Below are positions 7,495-39,851 of a stretch of DNA of 64,000 nucleotides, one piece after another (position 1 is the stretch's first letter; the number at the start of each line of letters is the position of its first letter). This DNA comes from an uncultured Paracoccaceae bacterium (GTDB lineage: Bacteria; Pseudomonadota; Alphaproteobacteria; Rhodobacterales; Rhodobacteraceae). A program made the translations under genes and the position numbers. Where the stretch lies: positions 1 through 64,000 of the forward strand of contig CAJXWO010000003.1 of NCBI GenBank assembly GCA_913062865.1. Direction: 5' to 3'. The notes below the pieces were generated by a model, which saw nothing but the letters and a program-made list of their open reading frames with translations, was not told the origin of the DNA and made no database searches.

Positions 7495-8644
7495 GGATTG
7501 GCAAAGCGGCGGCTTCGGCCTGTATATCCATTGGCCGTTCTGCCAGGCGAAATGCCCCTATTGCGACTTCAACAGCCACGTTCAGGCGCAGATCGAACAA
7601 TCGCGCTGGCAACGGGCCTATCTTGCCGAAATCGACCGCGTCGGCGCGCTGACCAGGGGTCGTGCGCTGAACACGGTGTTCTTCGGCGGCGGCACGCCCA
7701 GCCTGATGGATCCGGATGTCGTGGACGCGATCCTGACCCGCGCGCGCGAAACCTGGCCGCTGGCGAATGATGCCGAAATCACGCTCGAGGCCAATCCCGG
7801 CTCGGTCGAAGCCGGGCGGTTCCGCGGTTACGCCCAGGCCGGGGTCAACCGCGTGTCCATGGGCATTCAGGCTCTGAATAACGCCGATCTGCGCCGTTTG
7901 GGCCGCTTGCACACGGTGGAAGAAGCGCGCGCCGCCCTTGATATCGCGCGCAATGCTTTCGACCGGGTCAGTTTCGATCTGATCTATGCGCGGCAGGATC
8001 AGAGCCTGTCCGAATGGCAGACCGAGCTGCGCGAGGCACTGTCCATGGCCGTCGATCACCTGTCTCTATACCAGCTGACGATCGAACAGGGCACCGCCTT
8101 TGGGGACAGGTACAATCGCGGGGGGCTACAGGGCCTGCCCGATGACGACCTGTCGGCCAGCCTATACGAGGCCACGCAAGACATCTGCGAGGCCGCCGGG
8201 ATGCCCGCCTATGAAGTGTCGAACCATGCCCGGCCGGGCGCGGAATCGCGGCACAACCTGATCTATTGGCGCTATGGCGACTATGCCGGGATCGGCCCCG
8301 GTGCTCATGGACGGCTGACGCTGAACGGGCAGCGCATCGCCACCGCCGCGCACAAGATGCCCGCGCTGTGGCTGGAGGCGGTGGACCACGGCCGCCCGGA
8401 TATCGAGTCAGAGACGATTCAAGCCGAAGAACAGGCCACCGAGTTCCTCTTGATGAACCTGCGCCTCGCCGAGGGTCTAGACATGAACCGCTATGAGCGT
8501 ATTTCCAGAGAGCCCCTGCCCGCCCCTGCCCTGACCGAGTTGGTCGAGCTTGGGATGGTAGAGGTTGCGGGCGACCGCTTGACCGTCACAGCACAGGGAC
8601 GCCCCGTACTGAACGCTATCCTGCGAAAACTGTTGGGCGCGTGA
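7487..8644 (+). CDS. hemW: Radical SAM heme chaperone HemW / coproporphyrinogen III oxidase-like (start uncertain)
   Basis: GFGLYIHWPFCQAKCPYCDFNSH; GGGTPSLM; overlaps the end of rdgB. Confidence 0.93.
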   Translation: MTEDWQSGGFGLYIHWPFCQAKCPYCDFNSHVQAQIEQSRWQRAYLAEIDRVGALTRGRALNTVFFGGGTPSLMDPDVVDAILTRARETWPLANDAEITLEANPGSVEAGRFRGYAQAGVNRVSMGIQALNNADLRRLGRLHTVEEARAALDIARNAFDRVSFDLIYARQDQSLSEWQTELREALSMAVDHLSLYQLTIEQGTAFGDRYNRGGLQGLPDDDLSASLYEATQDICEAAGMPAYEVSNHARPGAESRHNLIYWRYGDYAGIGPGAHGRLTLNGQRIATAAHKMPALWLEAVDHGRPDIESETIQAEEQATEFLLMNLRLAEGLDMNRYERISREPLPAPALTELVELGMVEVAGDRLTVTAQGRPVLNAILRKLLGA

Positions 8645-8646
8645 AC

Positions 8647-9549
8647 TCAGGCAGAGCTGAGGATGCGGCAAATCTCGTCCAGCTCTTCAAAGCTCTTGTA
8701 TCGGATCACGACCTGGCCGTTCTCAGCGCCCGGCTTTGCCTCGACACTCACAGCCATGCCGACGGCCGCTGACAGATCACCTTCGAGTGCGCGGGTATCC
8801 GCATCCTTGTCACCCTTGGGCTTGTCCTTAGCCACCGGGCTAGACGCGGTGGCGGGCTTCGCCGCCAGTTTTTCGGTTTCGCGCACGGACAAACCGCCCT
8901 TGACCACCTGGGCGGCCAGCGTTTCGGGGTTCTCGGACGTGATCAGCGCACGCGCATGACCCGCCGACAGATCGCCCCGTGTTACCATGTCCTGCACTGA
9001 TTGGGGCAGTTGCAACAGGCGCATCAGGTTCGCGATATGACTGCGGCTTTTGCCAAGCGCATCCGACAGCTTCTGCTGCGTGTGTCCGAACCGCTCCATC
9101 AATTGCTGATACCCCATCGCCTCTTCGATGGGTGTCAGGTCGGCGCGCTGGATGTTCTCGATGATCGCGATCTCAAGCACTTCGGCATCGTCGAAATCGC
9201 GCACGATCACCGGCAACTCGTGCTGCTGCGCGATCTGTGACGCGCGCCAACGGCGTTCACCAGCGACGATCTCGTAGATCCCGGGCTTTTTGCCTGCACG
9301 GACGATCAGGGGTTGGATCACGCCCTTTTCCCGAATCGACTCGGCCAGCTCTTTCAGCGCGTCTTCGTTGAAGCGCCGGCGCGGCTGGTCCGGATTGGGC
9401 ACGATCTTTTCGATGGGCAGCGTCATGTCCGAGCGCTTTGGCGCAGGTTCGGACCCGTCCTCGGGCACAGAGGTCTGTACACTTTCCAAGTCCGCCATCA
9501 AGGCAGACAGACCACGGCCCAGGCCCCGTTTCGCCTTCTTGTCACTCAT
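8647..9549 (-). CDS. parB: Chromosome partitioning protein ParB (ORF extends to 9642)
   Basis: MSDKKAKRGLGRGLSALMADLES...IVAGERRWRASQIA; followed by parA. Confidence 0.96.
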   Translation of the reverse strand: MSDKKAKRGLGRGLSALMADLESVQTSVPEDGSEPAPKRSDMTLPIEKIVPNPDQPRRRFNEDALKELAESIREKGVIQPLIVRAGKKPGIYEIVAGERRWRASQIAQQHELPVIVRDFDDAEVLEIAIIENIQRADLTPIEEAMGYQQLMERFGHTQQKLSDALGKSRSHIANLMRLLQLPQSVQDMVTRGDLSAGHARALITSENPETLAAQVVKGGLSVRETEKLAAKPATASSPVAKDKPKGDKDADTRALEGDLSAAVGMAVSVEAKPGAENGQVVIRYKSFEELDEICRILSSA

Positions 9550-23402: not shown

Positions 23403-23441
23403 GGGCGCAGCTTTCGGTCAGCGCCCCGCGCCCCGCAAGCG

Positions 23442-24590
23442 CTAATTCTGCAGGACCAGCCCGGGCGACAGGATCAGCTGCGTGGCGTTCCGCACGGTCA
23501 GCACCGTCCCGGGCAAGAGGCCCGATTGCCCCGCGCGGTCTTGCTGGAACGCGGCGTCCAGATCGCGCGCCCGGCTCAGAAGCTGGATCAGCGCGGGCGA
23601 GGTGCCGGCCGTGAAATGGTTGAGCGGCCCGCCGTCAAAGGCGCTGATATCCACCAGCGTCACCGGCAGGTTAGCCACCTCTTCCGCCTTGTTGAGTGAC
23701 CCGAGGCGGTTCGTCACCCCTGTGAGCCGCGCCGAAAGCCGCAGCGCCCGGTCCCGTTCGGAGACGAAGATGGCAAAGGGGCGCGGCAGCGCCGCGAACC
23801 GGTCCGCCTGCGTCTTGAACAGATCGACGGCGATATCGGGCGAAATCAGGATCACCCCGCTCAGGTTGCGCCGCGCCCAGCCGGGATCGGCGATCTCGAT
23901 CTGGCGCAGGGTTTCCATGATCAGAAGCGTGCCCATGGAATGCCCGACAAGCAGAGTACGCTCGGGCCCCGCGGCGGCAACCTCGCGCAGGGTCCTCTCG
24001 AACCCGTCGCGTGCCATCAGCACCGAGTCGCGGTCATGGACATAGCCTAGCGGGTTGGTGGCGCTGGGCCACGAGAAATGCATCGCCGCCCCCGGCAATT
24101 CGAAATCACGCATGATCTGGGCCATGCGGAACGCGCCATCGGCGAAACTGTTGTTGTAGCCATGGACGAAAATCGTGGTCTCCCGCTCGGTCGGCGGAAG
24201 CCCTGTCAGCGCATCGCGCAGGGCAGCGCGAAAAGCGGTCTCGCCGGGCAGGCGCTCCTGCCCGGCCATCACGAAATGTCGTTCCGGATCTGGGTTCGCG
24301 TGGCCCACGCGCATCCGTCCGGGGCGGTGTTCAGGTGGAACAGTGACGGTCAGGTCAAGGAAACTGACCTCGGCCTGGCGGTCACGCCCGAAAATACCGG
24401 CCTGGGTTTCGACTCGGGTCGTCGCGGTCAGAATGCGGTAGGGCGTGCCGATCTGGGTGGCAAAGGGCACCAAAGGCGCCGCGGTGCGGTCGGTGCAGGC
24501 GGCACCGAACATCACCAGAAGAACCAGACCGATACGGATCACCAGCGCACCCCCGAAACACGTCAGGGCCTGCCATAGCGGGAATGGCAA
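23442..24590 (-). CDS. Alpha/beta hydrolase (DUF900 type), probable lipoprotein
   Basis: Lipobox-like VMFGAAC; FVHGYNNSFADGAFR; LVGHSMGTLLIMETLRQ. Confidence 0.82.
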   Translation of the reverse strand: MPFPLWQALTCFGGALVIRIGLVLLVMFGAACTDRTAAPLVPFATQIGTPYRILTATTRVETQAGIFGRDRQAEVSFLDLTVTVPPEHRPGRMRVGHANPDPERHFVMAGQERLPGETAFRAALRDALTGLPPTERETTIFVHGYNNSFADGAFRMAQIMRDFELPGAAMHFSWPSATNPLGYVHDRDSVLMARDGFERTLREVAAAGPERTLLVGHSMGTLLIMETLRQIEIADPGWARRNLSGVILISPDIAVDLFKTQADRFAALPRPFAIFVSERDRALRLSARLTGVTNRLGSLNKAEEVANLPVTLVDISAFDGGPLNHFTAGTSPALIQLLSRARDLDAAFQQDRAGQSGLLPGTVLTVRNATQLILSPGLVLQN

Positions 24591-27017: not shown

Positions 27018-30000
27018 TCAAGACAGCCCGGCGCGCTGCAAGCTCTCGTGAACGATGCGTTCGGGAAGCCACATGAGGCTGTTCGTCCGGGTCCAGAGGA
27101 TCGCGGTGTCGATCTGTCGGTCGGGATAGATCCCGGCCAGCGCGTGGGCATAGGCGCCCATCTGGCGCAAGAGACCCTCGGGGCAGGTTTCGGGCGTGTC
27201 GGGCACCACGGCATTCGTCTTGAAATCGACCGCGCGTACCCGATCGTCCGCGATCATCAGCCTGTCGATCGTACCCACGAGTCGGCGCCCACCCAGCTCT
27301 GCGCTGACCGGGACCTCGGCCAGCGCGTCATCGGCAAAGATCCAAGCCAGCTGCGGATGTGTCAGAACTGCGCGCGCCTCCGACAGGATGTCGTCCCGTT
27401 CGGCGGGATCCGTGTCGAACGCCGCTAGGATCACGCGCGTGGCCTCTGGCCAGTCGGACGGGGGCATGGCCGGCAGCCGCTCAAGCAGCAGGTGTACCAT
27501 GGTGCCGCGCAGCTTGGCACGCGCGTCGTCAAGTCCCTCGGCCCCGGGCAAGGCCTTGGCGCCGCCCAGATCCGACGGGCTGAGAAGATCCGGCGCCGGT
27601 TCGACCGGCGGGGCGGGTGACCGGAACCGGGCGGGTAGCGTGACGTCCGGACCGGTCTTGGATTGTTGCTCGGTCATGGGCAGGTCGACCCACTGCCCTT
27701 CCTCCAGCCGCAGACCATTGTCGAAGGGAAACGCGAAGGGCAGTCCGCCCGCATGGCCCAGCGCTGCGGCGACCCGGCTGTGCCAATCTTCGCCCTCCTT
27801 GTCGACCTCGCCCGCGCCGCAGACGATCAGCCAGCTTTCCGCGCGGGTCATGGCGACGTAAAGCAACCGGTCCCGTTCATCGCGATCCGCCGCCACCCGA
27901 TCATCCCTGGCCCGGACCATCGGGGCCGGCAGATCATCCTTGCCCATGCGCCAGACCGGTGTGCCGTCGATGCCGAGGATCCGGTCGCGCATTTGGTCCT
28001 GCCGCTTTGCGCTGTCGGGCAGGATGACGATCGGCGCCTCGAGCCCCTTGGCCCCGTGCACGGTCATCACGCGCAGCTTGTCGCCCGCGCCCTCCATCTG
28101 CCGCTTGATCTCCAGCTCGTCGGCGACCGCCCATTCCAGGAATCCGGTCAGGCTGGGCACGTTGCTGCGTTCATAGGAGAGCGCCTGGGCCAGAAGCGCA
28201 TCGATCCCGTCCTCGGCCTCGTCGCCCAACCGGGCGATCAGATGCTTGCGCCCTTCATGCCGGGTCAGGATCCGTTCGATCAAATCGAAGGGCCGCAGGA
28301 AGTCGGCCTGTCCACGCAGATCGTCGAGCACAGCCATCACGCCGGGATATTCGTCTCTGTTCCGGCGCAACTCGGGCCACAGGTGATCGCTTTTGCGCGG
28401 TTGGGCCAGGCGATACAGGTCATCCTCGGACCAGCCGAAAAGCGGTGATTTCAGTACGGTGGCCAGCGACAGGCTGTCCTCGGGCGTGGCGAGAAAGGAC
28501 AAGAGCGCAATCAGGTCGCGCACCGCGATCTCGGCCCCGACCTTGAGCCGGTCGGCACCGGCCACGGGCAGGTCGGCCTGTTTGCAGGCTCGGATGATCT
28601 CGTGAAACAAAAGGCTGCGCTTCTGGACCAGGATCATCACGTCGCCCGCGGTGATCGGCCGGGCCGATTGCCCGTCATCGGCTGGCAGGGGTGTCCCGAT
28701 CATGGCCTTGAGCTGTGCGGCGATCCGTTCGGCCAGTTGCACGGCATGGTGGTGCGCGCCGGGTCGGTCGACGGGGTCGAACCAGGGGCTGTCCTCGGGC
28801 TCTTCGGTCTTGTCGATCATGGGCCAAAGGTCGACCCGGCCAGGCTTGTCGGATTTGAAGGCCCGGTGCGCCGCATCCGAGAACCCGGCCCGTTTGCGCC
28901 CCCGGAAACAGGCATCGACGGTGCGCAGGATCGCCCCGGCCGAGCGGAACGAGTACGCCAGCTGCCTGTCCCAGAGTCTGTCACCCACGGCCGCAAGCCC
29001 TGTGCCGAACTCATCCTGCATCCGGTCGAAACCACCGGGATCCGCCCCGTGAAACGAGTAGATCGACTGTTTCTTGTCCCCCACGACGAAGATCGTGCGC
29101 TCGACATCGGACCGGGCCCCCTCGCCCGCAGTGAACTCTTGCGCCAGCTTTCGGATCACGTCCCATTGCGCGGGGCTGGTGTCCTGCGCCTCGTCGACCA
29201 GGATGTGGTCGATTCCGCCATCGAGCCGGAACAGAACCCAGGCCGCGACCGCCGGATCGGACAGGAGCCGTCGCGCGCGCAGGATCAGATCATCGAAATC
29301 GAGCCAGCCACGCGCCTCTTTCCGTGCTTCGTACAACGGCAGGAACGCCGCGGCAAAGCGGTGTAGACCAGCGGTTTTCCGGGCCGCCGCCAAGGCGATG
29401 CGCGTGTCGCGCGCGGCTTCGATCCGCAGCATGAACTGCTCCAGTCGGTCCAGCAGCGCGGGTGCCATCCTGCCCCGAGTGCCCTTGGTCGGAACAGAGC
29501 CTATCTTAGACGAAAACGGATCTGCTGCTTTAGAACCAGTCAGAAATGCAGATTCCAGGACAGGCAAGACCGATAGATCGCAGGCCAACGCCTCTCGCAG
29601 CTTGGCGGCCAGCTTCACATCGTTTGAACTGCCATTGGCCGAGACCTCGGCCACATCCTGCAATAGCGATGGCTCGTCGCCCAGGAACACTTGCGCCTCG
29701 AGAGTGGACTCGTCCATGCCGACAGGAACCCCCAAAAGACGGCGAGCGCCGTCAAGATCCAGGATCGGATCAAAGGCTTCGCGCTGGGCGGCAATGGCCG
29801 CCGCCAGCCCGTCAAAATCGCCATCGCCCATCGTGTCGGCCATCGCGGCGACCACGTCACGATGCGGACCCTTGGCCATCTCTTCCAGGATATCCTCGCG
29901 CAACAGCGCCGTCGTGCGCTCTTCCATCTCGGTGAATTGCGGGCTGACCCCGGCTTCGAGCGGGAAGCGCCGAAGCAGCGCGGCGCAGAATGAATGGATT

Positions 30001-30365
30001 GTCTGGATCTTGAGCCCGCCGGGCGTCTCGATTGCGCGGGCAAAAAGCGTGCGCGCCATCGCGATCCGCTCGGCGCTCAGGTCGCCCTCTTCCCCAAGCT
30101 GAGACAGCTCTGCGCGCAGGTCCGCCTTGGGCAGCATCGCCCATGCCCCGAGCCTGCGGAACAGGCGGTTCTGCATCTCGCTTGCCGCAGCCTTGGTGTA
30201 GGTCAGGCACAGGATATGCTGGGGCGACACGCCGTTCAGCAAAAGCCGCGCCACCCGGTCCGTCAGCACGCGGGTCTTGCCCGACCCGGCATTTGCCGAC
30301 AGCCAGGTTGAGGCATCCGGACGGGCAGCCTGAACCTGCGCCTCGGTCGCGTCGTCCCGTCTCAT
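27018..30365 (-). CDS. addA: Double-strand break repair helicase AddA
   Basis: [41 protein letters not shown]; paired with addB. Confidence 0.95.
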
Positions 30366-33298
30366 GATCCGACCTCCGTTCCGACAGGGTCGTCGGTGGT
30401 ATCCCATTCGCCGAACCGTGCAAGGTGGTCGTAATCGCTGCCAAAGCGATCCTTCTGCATTGCCCGCCGGGCGGTATAGCCGCGGTCGCGGTCGCGGTAG
30501 GCGCCGATCAGCTTCGTGAACTCGGCCAGCACCTGCGCGGTCGGCACCTCGTCCAGCGGGGCCGGCACCAGCTTGCCACCGGAGCCGAGCCCAATGAAAA
30601 CGGCTTCGGCCACCGGGGCAGGGTCGACGTTTTCGAACTGCCCGTGTTCGGCGATCATCGCCTCGAGCAGAAGCTGCTTGTCAAAGGCCTTTTGTTCTTT
30701 CTTCGTGGGCGGGCTGCCGGTCTTGTAGTCGTAAAGAAGGATCTCGCCGGTATCGGACAGGTCGATGCGGTCGGCCTTTGCGGTCAGGCAGAAATCGAAT
30801 TCCGGCAAAATCAGGTGACCTTTCCGCTCGAATGCCGTGGGCCGCGCACGGCTCTGCCGCTCGTGTTCTTCGGCGACGAATCGATCCGCCACGCGGCGCA
30901 GGCCAGCGGCCCATGTTTCGCGCGCAAGATGCCAGGGCACCTTCGCATCAAGCCTGTCCCGGGCCATGCGCAGCAACGTCTCGGGGCGCAGATCGCCGGA
31001 CCGGATGAACGCCTCCAACACGTCATGCACAACGATCCCGCGCATCAGCGCATCGGGTGCGCGCATCAGCGGGTCAAGTGGCAACAGCCGCAGCACGCGC
31101 CGGGCGTAGATCGCATAGGGATCGCGGATCAGCGTCTTGATCTCGGTCACCGAAAGCCGTTTCGGCCGCGCGGTTTCAGGCGGTTGTGGCGAAGGGCGCG
31201 GTGCGCGGCAGACGGGCGGCGACGCATCGAGGACAGAGGCAAAGCCCAGCCATTCCGCGCCGCGTGCGCGCATGGCATCCAGCATCTCGGGACCACCTTC
31301 GTCGGGCAGACCGGACAACAGATTGATCAGACGATTGATCCAGCGCGACGGTACGGTTTCCGCGTCATCCGACCGTTTGGATCGGGTCAGCCAGACCTCG
31401 GTTGCGCCGATGGCCTGCTGGAAGTCTTGGGCCGACAATCCGATCCGACGTTCCGGCAACAACAGCCCGGCCCGGTCCCGCAGCTTGCGGTTCAGCCACG
31501 GGTCGGGCGCGGGGGCCTCGGGCCAGCTGCCCTCGTTCAGACCGCCCAGGATCATCAGGTCGGCCCCCTGCACCCGCGCTTCGAGCGTGCCCCAGATCAG
31601 GATGCGGGGATGGGGCGCGTCCCTGTCGCGCAGCTCACCCCGTGATAGGACGGCACCGAACAGGTCGGCATAGTCCGCCGCGCTCAGATCGCCACCCGCA
31701 TCCGCCGTCGCCAGAAGCCTGTCCACCGCCGCGCGCGTTTCGATCCCGGCGCGTTCGTCCCAAAGGGTTCCGCTGCCCGTGCCCTCGGGTCCGTGTGCCA
31801 GCCGTTCCGAAAGCGCGACATGCATCCCCAGCAGTGTGCCCAGTGGCTGCACCCCGCCTTGGCGCTGCCCGCAGAAACAGTCGATAACCCATTCGATCCA
31901 GGTTTCGGCCTCGGGCCGTTTCAGGGCCTTGGCCCAGGCCCACAGGGCGGCCTTGTCGGGGTAGGGCACACCTTTCTTGCGGAGCCAAAGTTCCAGTTCG
32001 CGGGTCAGCAGAAGATGCGGACCACGGTCCGCCCCGCTGTGGCACAGCGGGTGCTTGAGCACGGTCAGAAGCAGCTCTGACGTCAAATCCTGCAGGAACA
32101 GTGACGCAACATGGCGCAGGAACCGCCCTGGTGCCGTCAGTTGAAGTGGCGTCCCCGCGCTGTCGTCGGGCAGGATGCCCCACCGGTCCAAAGCGGCAGT
32201 GACCTGCCGTGTCAGCATCCGGTCCGGCGTGATCAGCGCGGCGGTCTGCCCGTCCTCGGCCGCTTGGCGCAGCCGCAGCGCAATGGCAAGCGCCTCGGCG
32301 CGGGCGCTGGGCGCTTCGACAAGGGTCAGATGCCCGGTGGCGGCCTCGAGTTCCGGGCCCAGCTTGGGGCCGTCCTGCAACCAGGCGTCTGTCACCGGCG
32401 CAGGCCTGAGTGCCAGAGAGATGAGCCGATTGGTGGCCGGGTGCGGCGCCGTGTGGTCCGACCATCGGGAAATATCGTCACTGTTCAGGCCAAGATCCTG
32501 CATGAGCCGGTAAAACCGGAACTGTGGATGGTCCTCGGCCGACAGCCCGCTTCCATCCCGCTCGAGCGCATTCCAGACCGCGCGCGGCATGTGGAAGTCG
32601 AACCCCGGCAGGATCACCGCGCCCTGCGGGAGCCGAGAGACGGCCCCCATCAACAAGTGGGTCGTGCCCCGCGATCCCGTCGATCCGGCTAGGATGACCG
32701 GGTGATCCGGCGGATCGCCCTGCCAGGAGTGGGCCAACCGCTCGGCGGCCTGACGTTGCTGAGCGGCGGCATCAGGCTCTGTCTCGGCCCGATCGAGGTA
32801 ATCCTGAACGATGCTCAGAAAGGTCTTGGCCCGGTCCCAGTGACCCGAGGTGTCGCTCACGTCGAGCCCACGGATCGCATCGGCAGAGACGCCTTCGCCC
32901 TGCATCTCGTCGAACAGCGCCGCCAGGCTGTCGGCCAGGTCGAAGAGCGACGCACGCGGCGCAAGGTCTGGCGCGTTTGCCAGCAATTGGTCGACAAGCG
33001 TTGTCAGTTCGATCCTGCGCCGCAGCGGATCGGCTGGCGGCGGAACCGGGTGGCGCGGATCGAGCGCGGGCAGATCCGTGACCAGCCGGATACGGGGCAG
33101 GAACCCGGCGGGCCCTTCGACAAAGACCGTTTCGATCCGCCGGCGCATGCGGGCGGTGTTCACGATCAGCTCGACCCGGGCCATGGCGTCAGGTGGCTGG
33201 CCGTCAAGACGGGCGCGTAGACCGTCCACCAACGCGCGCGGAAAATCGACGCCGGGCTCCATGGCAAAGACACGGGGCTGCATTTGCGCATCAAACAT
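30362..33298 (-). CDS. addB: Double-strand break repair protein AddB
   Basis: MFDAQMQPRVFAMEPGVDFPRALVDGL...VTEIKTLIRDPYAIYARRVLRL; adjacent to addA. Confidence 0.93.
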   Translation of the reverse strand: MFDAQMQPRVFAMEPGVDFPRALVDGLRARLDGQPPDAMARVELIVNTARMRRRIETVFVEGPAGFLPRIRLVTDLPALDPRHPVPPPADPLRRRIELTTLVDQLLANAPDLAPRASLFDLADSLAALFDEMQGEGVSADAIRGLDVSDTSGHWDRAKTFLSIVQDYLDRAETEPDAAAQQRQAAERLAHSWQGDPPDHPVILAGSTGSRGTTHLLMGAVSRLPQGAVILPGFDFHMPRAVWNALERDGSGLSAEDHPQFRFYRLMQDLGLNSDDISRWSDHTAPHPATNRLISLALRPAPVTDAWLQDGPKLGPELEAATGHLTLVEAPSARAEALAIALRLRQAAEDGQTAALITPDRMLTRQVTAALDRWGILPDDSAGTPLQLTAPGRFLRHVASLFLQDLTSELLLTVLKHPLCHSGADRGPHLLLTRELELWLRKKGVPYPDKAALWAWAKALKRPEAETWIEWVIDCFCGQRQGGVQPLGTLLGMHVALSERLAHGPEGTGSGTLWDERAGIETRAAVDRLLATADAGGDLSAADYADLFGAVLSRGELRDRDAPHPRILIWGTLEARVQGADLMILGGLNEGSWPEAPAPDPWLNRKLRDRAGLLLPERRIGLSAQDFQQAIGATEVWLTRSKRSDDAETVPSRWINRLINLLSGLPDEGGPEMLDAMRARGAEWLGFASVLDASPPVCRAPRPSPQPPETARPKRLSVTEIKTLIRDPYAIYARRVLRLLPLDPLMRAPDALMRGIVVHDVLEAFIRSGDLRPETLLRMARDRLDAKVPWHLARETWAAGLRRVADRFVAEEHERQSRARPTAFERKGHLILPEFDFCLTAKADRIDLSDTGEILLYDYKTGSPPTKKEQKAFDKQLLLEAMIAEHGQFENVDPAPVAEAVFIGLGSGGKLVPAPLDEVPTAQVLAEFTKLIGAYRDRDRGYTARRAMQKDRFGSDYDHLARFGEWDTTDDPVGTEVGS

Positions 33299-33968
33299 CG
33301 CTGCGCTCCAGCAAGGTTTCGGCCAGGGCGATGCCCTCGGGTCTGCCGACATCGCACCATGCGCCGGGATAGGTCACGGTGAACAGGCGTCTTGCGGCGA
33401 TCATCTCTTTCCAGACCTCGCGCAAGGAAAACACCGTCGCATCAATATCCTGCAGCCGCCCGGTGCGCAGGATCTGTGCGCCCGTATAGATATCGCCCGG
33501 ACCGCGGCTGGCGCGGCCGTCGCGATCGGTCAGGAAATCGCCCGGGCCCCCATGTCCGTATGCCCGGGTCTTCGGCACGCACAGCAAAAGCGCCTCCATC
33601 CTCGTGCCGTCCCAGGCCGCGCGCAGAATGTCGAGCGGATTGGGCCCGGCCCAGACAGCATCGCTGTTCAGCGTCATGACCGGGTCGGCCTTCAGAAGCG
33701 GCAGGGCTTGTTTCAAGCCGCCACCGGTCTCAAGCACCTCTGGCGTTTCGTGCGACAGCAGGACATTCCGTCCCTGCAGATGCCGCGCGATCTGTTCGGC
33801 GCGGTAATGGGTGTTCACGACCACCCGCGGCACATCCTGCGTCAGGTCAAGCGCATGATCGAGCAGCGCCTTGCCCCCCACTTCGATCAGCGGTTTCGGG
33901 CGCGTTGCGGTGAGCGCGCCCATGCGGGTGCCGAAGCCGGCGGCAAAGATCAGGATGGCATCCGGCAT
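33291..33968 (-). CDS. murU: Nucleotidyltransferase, probable MurNAc-1-P uridylyltransferase (MurU-like)
   Basis: MPDAILIFAAGFGTRMGALTATRPKPLIEVGGKALLDHAL; adjacent to AmgK-like kinase. Confidence 0.83.
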   Translation of the reverse strand: MPDAILIFAAGFGTRMGALTATRPKPLIEVGGKALLDHALDLTQDVPRVVVNTHYRAEQIARHLQGRNVLLSHETPEVLETGGGLKQALPLLKADPVMTLNSDAVWAGPNPLDILRAAWDGTRMEALLLCVPKTRAYGHGGPGDFLTDRDGRASRGPGDIYTGAQILRTGRLQDIDATVFSLREVWKEMIAARRLFTVTYPGAWCDVGRPEGIALAETLLERSDV

Positions 33969-34942
33969 GGCGACCTCAGCTTGGACAGGTAGGCGGGATG
34001 CGGCGGGGGCAGGGCCTGTTTCAACACGGGTTCGATATCCGCCAGAGCCGGGTGCGCCAGGCAGGTCATCAAGTGGCCCCATACGCGGGGGATCATGTCG
34101 ATATAGCGCGACTTGCCGTCCCGCTGCGACAGCGCCGCGAAGATCCCCAGGATACGCAGGTTGCGCTGCGCGCCAAGCACATGGACGGCTGTCACCAGTG
34201 CCCCATGGGCCAGCCCGGTTGCATCGGAAAAGCGCCTTATCAGGCTCTGATCCAGCCCGGGCGACAGATCACGACGCGCATCCTGGATCAGGGAGGCAAG
34301 ATCATAAGCGGGGTGGCCGGCCATCGCGTCTTGAAAATCCAGAAGCCCCATCCGTGCGACGCCCCGGCGATCCGGCAGCCAGATCAGGTTCTCGGCATGG
34401 AAGTCGCGCAGGCCGAGGCTGTCCTGGCGGTCGGCGTGCCGGGTCAGCAGCTCTGCGAACCGGTCCCGGACCGGGCCGGCATCGGCCCCGGGCGCATACC
34501 AGTCAAAGGCCGGATCCACGGCCGCGGCCATGAAGGACGGGGTGTAGCGCGGCAGGTCCTCTGGGCAGGGCGTGCGGGCCAGTGCCGCAAGCGTGTCGAC
34601 GGCGGCGGCATAGAGCGCAGGCTCTCGGGTCGGGTCGTCGTCGCACAACCGCGCGACCAGCGCATCACCCAGATCTTCGAGCAGGATCATGCCATTGGCC
34701 GGGTCGCGGGCCAGGATGCGGGGCGCGCTGAAACCGTGGCTTTCCAGGTGCCCAGCGATTTTCAGGAAAGCGGTGTTGCTGGCCGCCGCGTCCGGTCCGG
34801 TCATCATGAGCACGGACGTTTCTATCCTGTCAGGCCGGAACAGTCTCACATATCGGCGAGACGAGGCGTCACCGGCAAGCGCTGCGCGCCGTGCCCCGTC
34901 CCATCCGGCACGTGCGAGAAAGCGGTCGACCGGATCAGCCAT
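33950..34942 (-). CDS. amgK: Aminoglycoside phosphotransferase-family kinase (AmgK-like anomeric sugar kinase)
   Basis: GDASSRRYVRL; LGLRDFHAENLIWLPDR; LLDFQDAMAGHPAYDLASL. Confidence 0.83.
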   Translation of the reverse strand: MADPVDRFLARAGWDGARRAALAGDASSRRYVRLFRPDRIETSVLMMTGPDAAASNTAFLKIAGHLESHGFSAPRILARDPANGMILLEDLGDALVARLCDDDPTREPALYAAAVDTLAALARTPCPEDLPRYTPSFMAAAVDPAFDWYAPGADAGPVRDRFAELLTRHADRQDSLGLRDFHAENLIWLPDRRGVARMGLLDFQDAMAGHPAYDLASLIQDARRDLSPGLDQSLIRRFSDATGLAHGALVTAVHVLGAQRNLRILGIFAALSQRDGKSRYIDMIPRVWGHLMTCLAHPALADIEPVLKQALPPPHPAYLSKLRSPCRMPS

Positions 34943-35420
34943 GTGCCCGCTCCGTCTTCAGCGATGCCAGTCTGTCGTCCCAATCGCCCTGCGCCCAGGA
35001 CAGGGTGATCCGACGCGCGCTGTCGGACAGGGTGTCGAACCGCAGGTGAAGCGCGGTGTCGGGCGTGTCTGGGCCCAGCCGATCGGGCCATTCGATCAGG
35101 CAGATCGCGCGCTCCATCGCCTCGTCCAGACCCAGTTCCATGACCTCGGACACGTCGGTGAGACGATAGAGATCGCTGTGCCAGATCTCACCCGTCCCTG
35201 TGTCGTAGGTCTGCACCAATGTGAAGGTGGGTGAAGGCACGTCCTCGGGGGTATCCATCTGCGACTGGATGAGCGATCGGGCGAAATGGGTTTTGCCCGC
35301 GCCGATCTCGCCCTCGAGCAACAGAACGTCGCCCGGCCGCAAAAGGCCGCCAATCATCGCGGCAAGCTCTGCCGTTTTCCGGGGCGAGGGCAGGTCGATC
35401 TGGAAACAGGGGCGCACCAT
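34935..35420 (-). CDS. tsaE: tRNA threonylcarbamoyladenosine biosynthesis ATPase TsaE (long ORF upstream to 36392 is not coding)
   Basis: LRPGDVLLLEGEIGAGKTHFARSLIQ; SPTFTLVQTY. Confidence 0.93.
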   Translation of the reverse strand: MVRPCFQIDLPSPRKTAELAAMIGGLLRPGDVLLLEGEIGAGKTHFARSLIQSQMDTPEDVPSPTFTLVQTYDTGTGEIWHSDLYRLTDVSEVMELGLDEAMERAICLIEWPDRLGPDTPDTALHLRFDTLSDSARRITLSWAQGDWDDRLASLKTERAHG

Positions 35421-35461: not shown

Positions 35462-37045
35462 CTATAGCAAGACCGAGGGTTGTGCCCGTCGGGACGCGAC
35501 CGTCGGCGACATGCCCGAGACGGGCAGGAATCCGATCAGCGTTCCGCCGCCGGAAATCGGGCTGATCGAGCAGGTCATCGGCTGGCCGGATTTCAGGACC
35601 ACCTCTGTTTGCCAGGGCAGGCGTTCGCCCGACGCCCCGACGAAATCGCGCAAATCGCCCCAGACCGGGCTCGGCTCGCTGGCGTCCATCCAGTGACGTG
35701 TGGCGTCGAGGATCGTCACCGCGGCAAAGCTGCTGTCGGGATCGCAGTCCCACAGCGACCGGTACGCCGCGTTGGTCATCATCAGAACTCCCTCGGACGA
35801 AAACACCGCAAGGGCTTCGTGCAGCGTGTCGAGCACTAGCTGGTTCTGTTCCATCTCGGCGCGGAAGCGTCGGGTCAGCGACACCTCGGCGCTGATGTCT
35901 TCGAGCAGGAAGGCGATGGCGCCGTCCGGATGGGGACGACCCGACAGCCGGTAGGTCTGACCCGAGGCCAGTGTCCAGGTTTCGCTGTAAACCCCGTTGA
36001 TCGCGGCCATCACGAGATCGCTGATCTGGTCGCGCCAATCGGCGTAGTTCTTGGGCTCTGGCATGATCTGGTGATCGCGCAGCTGGTCGAAAAAGGATTG
36101 CAGTTTGGGACGCGCGCTCAGGAATTCGGGGGACAGGTGCGTCAGGTCGATCAGGGCCGGGTTGAACAGCGCAAGCCGACGTTCCCTGTCGAAGATCGCA
36201 AGCCCCGTCGACAGGTGGGCAAATGTCTTTGTCAGCGTCTGCACGAAGTTGCGCTGGGCGACTTCGGCCTGGACGACCCGGTCGATACTGGTCGCGTGCC
36301 CGTACCAGGCACCGTCCTCTGCCCGGCTTTGCGAGACGTCGAACCAAAGTTCCTTGCCCGTGTCCGGAGGAGTCAGTGCCCGGCGGCCGCACAGATCGGC
36401 CCCTGTGCTGCCGTCCTGGCCGTGAAACAGCGCCCGGGGCGGGGTGGTGCCGGTGTCATGCCGGTTGAAGCGCATCCGGTCCGACAGTCTCCAATAGGCC
36501 GGGTTCGCCCACAGAACATGGCCGTCGGCGTCAGCTTTCCACATGGGTTCCGGCGCGCTGTCGGCGATTTCAGCCAATGTGTTGCGGTCTTCGGTCAGAC
36601 TGTGGACCAGCTGCGTCGTCAGCGCGGCATCGGACTGTGTGCTGGGCTCGCGCAGGGTCAGCCGAAGAACAGATCCCCACCGTTCCACATCAAGGCGCGC
36701 GGCGTCGATCACCCCCTGTGCCGAGGCGGCATCGTACCCTGGACCCGCAGCCTGGTCGGGATGCCGGGGAAGCCCGGGAAAGCGTGGCTTCAGCGCCGCC
36801 CACAGCCCGATCCAGTGATCTTCCTGCCGGTCGAGCGCGGCAAGGAACTGGCGCCCCTCCGGACTGGCGTCCACCAGGGCCGTTCCGTCGAACAGGAAGG
36901 TCATGCCGCCGCCCCGCACGGAGCGCGGCGGCACCGCCGCGGAGCGCCGCATCCACATCCGTGCCAGCGCCAGAAGCACCAGCCCGGTTCCCAGGCTGAC
37001 GGCGGCGATCTCGATCAGCAGAATGGCATCGAAAGACATGGGCAT
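35462..37045 (-). CDS. Membrane-anchored multi-PAS protein without visible HisKA/HATPase domain
   Basis: N-terminal TM (AILLIEIAAVSLGTGLVLLALARMW); PAS-like segments (ADGHVLWANPAYWRLSD; GLAIFDRERRLALFNPALIDL; ALAVFSSEGVLMMTNAAYRSLW); ends shortly after last PAS. Confidence 0.8.
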   Translation of the reverse strand: MPMSFDAILLIEIAAVSLGTGLVLLALARMWMRRSAAVPPRSVRGGGMTFLFDGTALVDASPEGRQFLAALDRQEDHWIGLWAALKPRFPGLPRHPDQAAGPGYDAASAQGVIDAARLDVERWGSVLRLTLREPSTQSDAALTTQLVHSLTEDRNTLAEIADSAPEPMWKADADGHVLWANPAYWRLSDRMRFNRHDTGTTPPRALFHGQDGSTGADLCGRRALTPPDTGKELWFDVSQSRAEDGAWYGHATSIDRVVQAEVAQRNFVQTLTKTFAHLSTGLAIFDRERRLALFNPALIDLTHLSPEFLSARPKLQSFFDQLRDHQIMPEPKNYADWRDQISDLVMAAINGVYSETWTLASGQTYRLSGRPHPDGAIAFLLEDISAEVSLTRRFRAEMEQNQLVLDTLHEALAVFSSEGVLMMTNAAYRSLWDCDPDSSFAAVTILDATRHWMDASEPSPVWGDLRDFVGASGERLPWQTEVVLKSGQPMTCSISPISGGGTLIGFLPVSGMSPTVASRRAQPSVLL

Positions 37046-37087
37046 GTCCCGCTCGGAACGGTTTGCCACAAGCTTCGGAAGCGGAGG

Positions 37088-37103
37088 GTTAACAAATGGT
37101 TAA
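37088..37103 (-). promoter_or_regulatory. Candidate CtrA-binding box upstream of the PAS-only gene
   Basis: Minus strand TTAA-CCATTTG-TTAAC matches TTAA-N7-TTAAC exactly; ~43 bp upstream of CDS start at 37045. Confidence 0.7.
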
Positions 37104-37114
37104 TCGTGCGCCGA

Positions 37115-38512
37115 TCAGACCTCGATGGGCCGGTTTTCCCCAAGGGGCACGGCATTTTCGCCACGCTGCCCGTCGATCTTCGTCCGGGGCCATACCAGTT
37201 CGACGATGGCCCCGCAGCGCTCGGGCTGGTCCTTGGCGGGAAGAAAGGGATCGGCACCGTTGGCAAAGCTGATCTCGGCCCCTGTGCGTTCGAGCAGCGT
37301 CTTGGCAATGAACAGGCCAAGCCCCATGCCGTCGTATTCCGGGCGCCGCCGGTCCGATCGCTCACCGCTGCGGCGCGCGACGAACGGATCGCCGATCCGG
37401 CCGATGAGGTTCTGCGGAAAGCCCTGCCCGTCATCCATGATCCGGATCGTCACCGTGTCGTCGGACCAGGCGGATTCGATCCAGACATTCTCGCGGGCGA
37501 AATCCACCGCGTTCTGGATCAGGTTGCGCAGCCCGTGGATAAGCTCGGGCCGCCGCAGGATCGACGGTTGGGTGAAACCTCCGCCCTGATCGGGCCGTTC
37601 GTTGAAATGGATCGCCTTGCCCCGCTCGGCATGGGGGCCCGCCGCCTCACGGATGACGGCGGCTAGCGGCGCCTGCCGCATTTGCAGGTCGTCCTTTCCA
37701 GTGCGCCCCATGGAGCGCAGGATATCGCGGCATCGGTCGGCCTGGTCACGGATCAGCTCGGCGTCCTCGCGCAGGTCCGGGCGGTCATCCAGTTCTTCCA
37801 TCAGTTCGGCACTGGTCAGCTTGATCGTCGCAAGGGGAGTGCCCAGCTCGTGCGCGGCAGCGGCCACGACGCCGCCCAGGTCGGTCAGCTTCTGTTCGCG
37901 CGACAGGGCCATTTGCGTGGCCGCAAGCGCCTCGGACATGACGTTCATCTCGGACGTCACGCGGCGGGAATAGAGACTGAGAAAGGTCAGTGCGATCACG
38001 ATGGCCGCCCAGTTTCCGAATAGGAATATGTCCGGGATCCGCAGGATGAACCCTTCCTGCGTGCGCAGGGGCAGGTGGAACTCGGCCAGAAGCGTGACCA
38101 GCACCACCGCGGTCACACCCAGAAAGATCGTGGCGCGCAGCTGCATCACCACAGCGGCCACGGTGACCGGGCCCAGCAGCATCAGCGCGAACGGATTGTG
38201 CAGGCCACCCGTGAGGTAGATCAGGAAGCTGAGCTGCAACAGGTCGAACAGCACCATCAGGAAATTCTCGGCCTCGGACAGGCGCTTGTTCTCGGGGAAC
38301 AGGAAGATGGCCAGGAGGTTGCCGATGACAGAGATGCCCACGGTCAGGTAGCACAGGCCCATTTCGATCTGCAGGTTGAACAGCCGCTCTGCCACCGTCA
38401 GCGCGGCGAGCTGCCCCGCGATGGCAACCCAGCGCAGGGTGATCAGCGTGCGCAGCCGGATGTAGCTGCCCCGCGAGGTCGTCCAAAGAAGGCCCGGACC
38501 CGTGTCGCTCAT
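37115..38512 (-). CDS. regB: Redox-responsive sensor histidine kinase RegB/PrrB/ActS
   Basis: 6-TM N-terminus, H-box VVAAAAHELGTPLATIKLTSAELMEEL; DQADRCRDILRSMGR; divergent from senC-regA. Confidence 0.93.
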   Translation of the reverse strand: MSDTGPGLLWTTSRGSYIRLRTLITLRWVAIAGQLAALTVAERLFNLQIEMGLCYLTVGISVIGNLLAIFLFPENKRLSEAENFLMVLFDLLQLSFLIYLTGGLHNPFALMLLGPVTVAAVVMQLRATIFLGVTAVVLVTLLAEFHLPLRTQEGFILRIPDIFLFGNWAAIVIALTFLSLYSRRVTSEMNVMSEALAATQMALSREQKLTDLGGVVAAAAHELGTPLATIKLTSAELMEELDDRPDLREDAELIRDQADRCRDILRSMGRTGKDDLQMRQAPLAAVIREAAGPHAERGKAIHFNERPDQGGGFTQPSILRRPELIHGLRNLIQNAVDFARENVWIESAWSDDTVTIRIMDDGQGFPQNLIGRIGDPFVARRSGERSDRRRPEYDGMGLGLFIAKTLLERTGAEISFANGADPFLPAKDQPERCGAIVELVWPRTKIDGQRGENAVPLGENRPIEV

Positions 38513-39221: not shown

Positions 39222-39296
39222 CGCTGCGAAGGTTTGACGCATGGGGGGGTGCGGGCTAGAAGTTTCTACCAGCACTCACAACCCGGAGGGTCCCGC

Positions 39297-39851
39297 ATGC
39301 CCGCAGATGCCCAAATCGATCTGGGAGAAGACCGAAGCCTTCTCTTGGTCGACGATGACGAGCCGTTTCTGCGGCGCCTTGCCAAGGCGATGGAAAAGCG
39401 CGGTTTCGAGGTCGAGACGGCCGGGTCCGTTGCGGCAGGACAAGCGGTGGCCACTGCCCGTCCGCCCGCTTATGCCGTGGTCGATCTGCGGCTTGAGGAT
39501 GGCAACGGCCTCGACGTTGTCGAAGTGTTGCGCGAAAAGCGGCCCGACAGCCGTGTCGTGGTTCTGACGGGGTACGGCGCCATTGCCACGGCCGTGGCCG
39601 CGGTCAAGATCGGGGCGACGGACTACCTGTCCAAGCCCGCCGATGCGACCGACATCACCAATGCCTTGTTGGCCCGGAGCGACGCTCTGCCCCCGCCACC
39701 GGAAAACCCGATGAGCGCCGACCGCGTGCGGTGGGAGCATATTCAGCGGGTCTACGAGCTGTGCGACCGCAACGTGTCGGAAACCGCGCGGCGGCTGAAC
39801 ATGCACCGCCGGACCCTGCAGCGCATCCTGGCCAAGCGCAGCCCGCGCTGA
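39297..39851 (+). CDS. regA: Response regulator RegA/PrrA/ActR
   Basis: EDRSLLLVDDDEPFLRRLAKAMEKRGF; C-terminal Fis-type HTH NVSETARRLNMHRRTLQRILAKRSPR. Confidence 0.95.
   Translation: MPADAQIDLGEDRSLLLVDDDEPFLRRLAKAMEKRGFEVETAGSVAAGQAVATARPPAYAVVDLRLEDGNGLDVVEVLREKRPDSRVVVLTGYGAIATAVAAVKIGATDYLSKPADATDITNALLARSDALPPPPENPMSADRVRWEHIQRVYELCDRNVSETARRLNMHRRTLQRILAKRSPR

Follow-up and report, generated by a model that had tools for sequence, protein, structure and literature searches.

We report that the 16 bp at positions 37088..37103 (minus strand) of the window, i.e. the whole stretch of DNA that was analysed (64,000 nucleotides), are very probably bound by CtrA and located where an activator would sit in the promoter that drives divL, and perhaps also the genes behind it. 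Since the PAS protein encoded downstream is DivL, a known regulator of CckA and CtrA, the box implies a feedback on the relay itself and not the control of an ordinary output gene.

The CtrA box in the window

Read directly from the letters, the minus strand from 37103 to 37088 is TTAACCATTTGTTAAC, an instance of TTAA-N7-TTAAC. The box starts 11 bp beyond the stop of regB (37115) and ends 42 bp short of the divL start codon (ATG, 37045). The pattern TTAAN7TTAA occurs a single time in the 64-kb window and in none of 100 dinucleotide shuffles; when one mismatch is tolerated, the window scan returns a sole extra match, which is the same site on the opposite strand. The sequence-only reading had given these coordinates and this strand, had placed the box in the gap between regB and a PAS gene, and had noticed no further full match in the window, and all of this is borne out. 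The motif TTAACCAT is found once in the window and is not significant alone, as 25 of 100 shuffles also contain one.

Across the 2.79 Mb assembly (86% complete), TTAA-N7-TTAA is not enriched, being found in 9 places compared to 7 for a reversed control pattern. Because this genome-wide count is near that of the control, the letters of the box alone prove little, and the evidence for the box is its location together with its degree of conservation.

Identity of the PAS gene

The gene following the box (35462..37045, minus strand; 527 amino acids) is assigned to the short form of divL on the basis of Pfam, an alignment with long DivL, and an AlphaFold model. Pfam lists PAS folds only, with no HisKA or HATPase domain. 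The alignment of short and long DivL extends over 396 columns (E 1.8e-49) and displays homology to the PAS region of the long form, the gene order divL-tsaE is common to the loci of both forms, and the short DivLs form a single continuous tree with the long ones. The model has a mean pLDDT of 81.6 and a pTM of 0.36, the relative placing of its domains being unsure; by our own reading it comprises one N-terminal helix, probably a membrane helix, and four PAS-like units, and it ends without a kinase. A sequence search of DivL against the PDB returned no match.

At the position of the histidine kinase motif, six long DivLs have the consensus SYELRTPL in place of the SHELRTPL of histidine kinases, and this fits the known pseudokinase. 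The alleged PAS-only protein is DivL in its truncated Rhodobacterales form, from which the pseudokinase is missing. Earlier studies have reported the short DivL of Rhodobacterales and noted that DivK is missing from this order (PMC9430884; PMC2877005). The earlier proposal that the PAS gene is a member of the CtrA regulon very probably holds, given the conserved box and the lower divL levels in ctrA mutants of relatives (see below), but that reading had missed that the gene is divL.

Conservation of the box across the family

A search of 200 genera from the family detected DivL in 182 of them. The conservation sample comprises 192 unique loci, 153 of them with a short DivL. In this short-DivL group the box is exact at 133 loci and carries one mismatch at 10, and the median spacing between box and start is 49 bp. 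At several further short-DivL loci, the seeming absence of a box was traced to a called start deep inside the gene, mostly as a result of split frames; in four of them an exact box follows closely behind the stop of regB. With the four rescored loci counted in, 165 DivL loci adjoin regB or tsaE, and this syntenic set divides into 138 with an exact box upstream, 12 with a one-mismatch box and 15 with none. Conservation of the box upstream of orthologues, for which the sequence-only reading had called, is thereby found. Exact boxes are present in 122 of 145 regB-divL gaps, whereas shuffled gaps give 0.2 on average and never more than 2. Outside the divL upstream region, no exact match was found in 421,060 bp of these loci. 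An exact box is likewise absent from all 32 remote matches, some of which are possibly other PAS kinases and not DivL. A primer check did not locate the R. capsulatus divL promoter in the loci examined.

These counts bear on the idea that the box arose by coincidence in an AT-rich gap, or that it is bound by a different factor, for example an Fnr-type regulator with which it shares a half-site. TTAAC half-sites are indeed shared with a Dnr/Fnr site in D. shibae (PMC7232146), and the genome-wide motif count given above is close to control. However, both TTAA halves and the N7 spacing are kept at the 138 exact loci and the motif occurs nowhere else in them, and Fnr-type sites have different halves and a different spacing, such that we consider this explanation highly improbable.

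In 18 of the 200 genera, including G014, G044 and G050, there was no DivL match; G050 has CckA despite this, and G014 and G044 have merely weak CckA matches. Furthermore, the short divL is apparently split into separate frames in G009, G098, G101, G108 and G183, some of which retain an intact upstream box.

Promoter anatomy

Alignment of the promoters on the box gives the pattern TTAAC-N6-TTAACC. Downstream of it, 110 of 135 promoters have A-N3-T, located 27 or 28 bases from where the box begins. In the window, this conserved spacing points to GAAGCT (37071..37076, minus strand; A at −11, T at −7) as a putative, weak −10 element, and the start of divL transcription is predicted at about 37064. 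With the A at −11 and the T at −7, the box would be located at about −39 to −24, which is an activator position. At promoters activated by CtrA the site lies near −35, and the A-N3-T element of the divL promoters resembles that of the CtrA-dependent fla2 promoters of R. sphaeroides, in which the A at −11 is invariant (PMC6180460). A consensus scan of the regB-divL gap revealed neither a sigma-70-type promoter nor a terminator, and hence read-through from regB into divL may occur.

It is also conceivable that CtrA binds the box yet represses divL, resulting in negative feedback on the relay. CtrA is known to repress some promoters (PMC6180460, citing work on Caulobacter), and the start site of divL is itself a prediction. 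Repressor sites overlap the −10 element, however, and the conserved −10-like element is here located about 12 bp downstream of the box. Moreover, ctrA knockouts of two relatives lead to lower, not higher, divL expression (PMC4046655; PMC6363796). Repression thus appears improbable.

Genes behind divL and the neighbouring redox system

Behind divL, and likewise on the minus strand, follows a run of genes from tsaE to addA (27018-35420) that is possibly fed by the CtrA promoter. The first is tsaE (34935..35420; profile matches and gene order), which follows divL after a gap of 41 bp. It is overlapped by a gene for an APH-family kinase (33950..34942; PF01636), probably amgK, a name inferred from gene order. 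This gene in turn overlaps a nucleotidyltransferase gene (33291..33968; PF12804/PF00483), probably murU, again named from gene order. A probable addB (30362..33352; PD-(D/E)XK nuclease, PF12705) overlaps the murU-like gene, and a probable addA (27018..30407; UvrD-type helicase-nuclease, PF00580 and PF12705) overlaps addB.

The box could mainly serve these five genes, with functions in cell-wall recycling and DNA repair, divL being merely the first gene of the operon. Four of the five junctions after divL overlap in the window, and across the loci tsaE keeps its place after divL, at a median gap of 42 bp. On the other hand, the box is located directly upstream of divL, and divL is a gene of the CtrA pathway. 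We regard a main role for the downstream genes as unlikely, and it is compatible with the control of divL by CtrA as the main explanation.

The upstream neighbour of divL is regB, encoding the redox sensor kinase (37115..38512, minus strand; NCBIfam NF045988, 787 bits with a cut-off of 570), and the response regulator gene regA is found in the same neighbourhood (39294..39851, plus strand; NCBIfam NF033791). A link from redox sensing to CtrA had been proposed from this adjacency. It is not supported, as the order regB-divL-tsaE is also present in long-DivL lineages that lack the exact box (L039, L105, L109 and L110). The neighbourhood is older than the box, and adjacency to regB was rejected as evidence for such a link. 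Redox inputs to divL of R. capsulatus have been suggested by other routes, namely FnrL near divL (PMC7232146) and SqrR (PMC9143464).

The CtrA relay and possible feedback

The genome encodes CtrA (NF045991, 421 bits with a cut-off of 350), ChpT and CckA. The last two do not reach the NCBIfam equivalog cut-offs and take their names from the best match, although ChpT is above its Pfam cut-off. Exact boxes are located upstream of cckA, of a gene for an Osp-like single-domain regulator and of a luxR-luxI pair, and ctrA is preceded by a one-mismatch box. Of 30 family genomes compared (L217-L246), 27 likewise have an exact box close to the start of cckA.

These data suggest a mechanism in which phosphorylated CtrA would bind both half-sites beside RNA polymerase and thereby raise the transcription of divL. 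The short DivL, probably a membrane-anchored PAS array, would then promote the kinase activity of CckA and, via ChpT, the phosphorylation of CtrA. As this box also precedes cckA, and a near-match precedes ctrA, the relay is likely self-reinforcing, with the CtrA-activated inhibitor Osp as a brake on it in many species. Binding in this organism, activation as opposed to repression, and the net positive sign are what we infer.

Several of these elements have precedents. That CtrA controls both cckA and divL in these bacteria was predicted by Brilli et al. (2010; PMC2877005): their "cluster B" Rhodobacterales have CtrA sites upstream of both genes, a DivL without a kinase domain and no DivK, and feedback was proposed, although from few genomes and without the promoter anatomy or the order of events. 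In Dinoroseobacter shibae, divL (Dshi_3433), which may or may not be the copy adjacent to regB, has a CtrA site in its promoter and is down-regulated in ctrA, cckA and chpT mutants (Wang et al., 2014; PMC4046655). Knockout of ctrA in R. capsulatus significantly lowers divL expression, and over-expression of ctrA raises it only mildly (PMC6363796). The product of this divL (rcc00042), likewise a PAS-domain protein, promotes CtrA phosphorylation through CckA according to PMC9143464, which cites Westbye et al. (2018). The "divL1" of P. inhibens is down in ctrA and cckA mutants (PMC12363192) and is not certain to correspond to the present gene. The osp gene of R. sphaeroides is similar insofar as it is activated by CtrA and its product acts back on CckA (PMC9430884); however, Osp is an inhibitor of CckA, and DivL would be expected to stimulate it.

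CtrA control of divL itself is thus not new, having been predicted and partly measured in relatives. What is new is the scale across most of a large family, the anatomy of the promoter, and the timing with respect to the loss of the pseudokinase. A PAS gene that had lacked an explanation can now be placed in the CtrA relay as one of its known parts, and a control loop that had been put forward on the basis of few genomes turns out to be nearly universal in the family. In addition, the conserved box offers a precise target for asking if feedback is the cause of the uneven CtrA response that underlies gene-transfer-agent production.

Gain of the box and loss of the pseudokinase

In a FastTree phylogeny of the 165 DivLs, a gene tree that comes with a warning of long branches, all exact boxes fall within one group of 153 (support 99). 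This group comprises 138 loci with an exact box, 11 with one mismatch and 4 with none, so that about 10% (15 of 153) of the box-bearing clade have a one-mismatch box or no box, and tail-bearing forms are located near its base. The simplest, albeit not proven, reading is that the box was gained once.

In the long DivLs of L196 and L204 both kinase domains are retained, and the box is absent from these loci. In L105, L109 and L110, HisKA is present, HATPase is undetectable and there is no box, and L031 combines HisKA without a detectable HATPase with a one-mismatch box. In L029, L030, L091 and L098, neither kinase domain is detectable, the tail is kept, and the exact box is present in all four. 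Long DivLs that keep the kinase lack the box, whereas all four lineages with a vestigial kinase tail possess it, and it therefore appears to have arisen at about the time the pseudokinase was lost. This suggests a sequence of events in which the ATPase domain first became undetectable, HisKA was then gone with the box present, and the tail was finally lost.

This order points to a possible and testable route by which a cell-cycle circuit was rewired. We tentatively hypothesize a regulatory swap: while DivL was losing its pseudokinase, and the DivK input with it, the divL promoter gained a CtrA box that was retained from then on, and a protein partner's control over the CckA relay gave way to transcriptional self-activation of cckA and divL. 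This is one possible account, somewhat short of an even chance. If true, switch-like and uneven CtrA activity would be possible in Rhodobacterales populations, with a bearing on gene transfer agents and motility.

Further boxes in the genome

The Osp-like gene (G000, contig C27, about 23428-23870; L047) has an exact box about 50 bp upstream. Its D51 and H115 are in register with residues studied in R. sphaeroides Osp, and it contains an in-frame TAG at codon 91, which may reflect either a real loss or an assembly error. The luxR-luxI pair behind an exact box is located on contig C19 (about 7795-9400; L051), and its luxR is apparently broken by an in-frame stop between the autoinducer-binding and DNA-binding parts. 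On contig C93 (4737-4797; L048), a small predicted lipoprotein without a Pfam match is preceded by two exact boxes, 46 bp apart.
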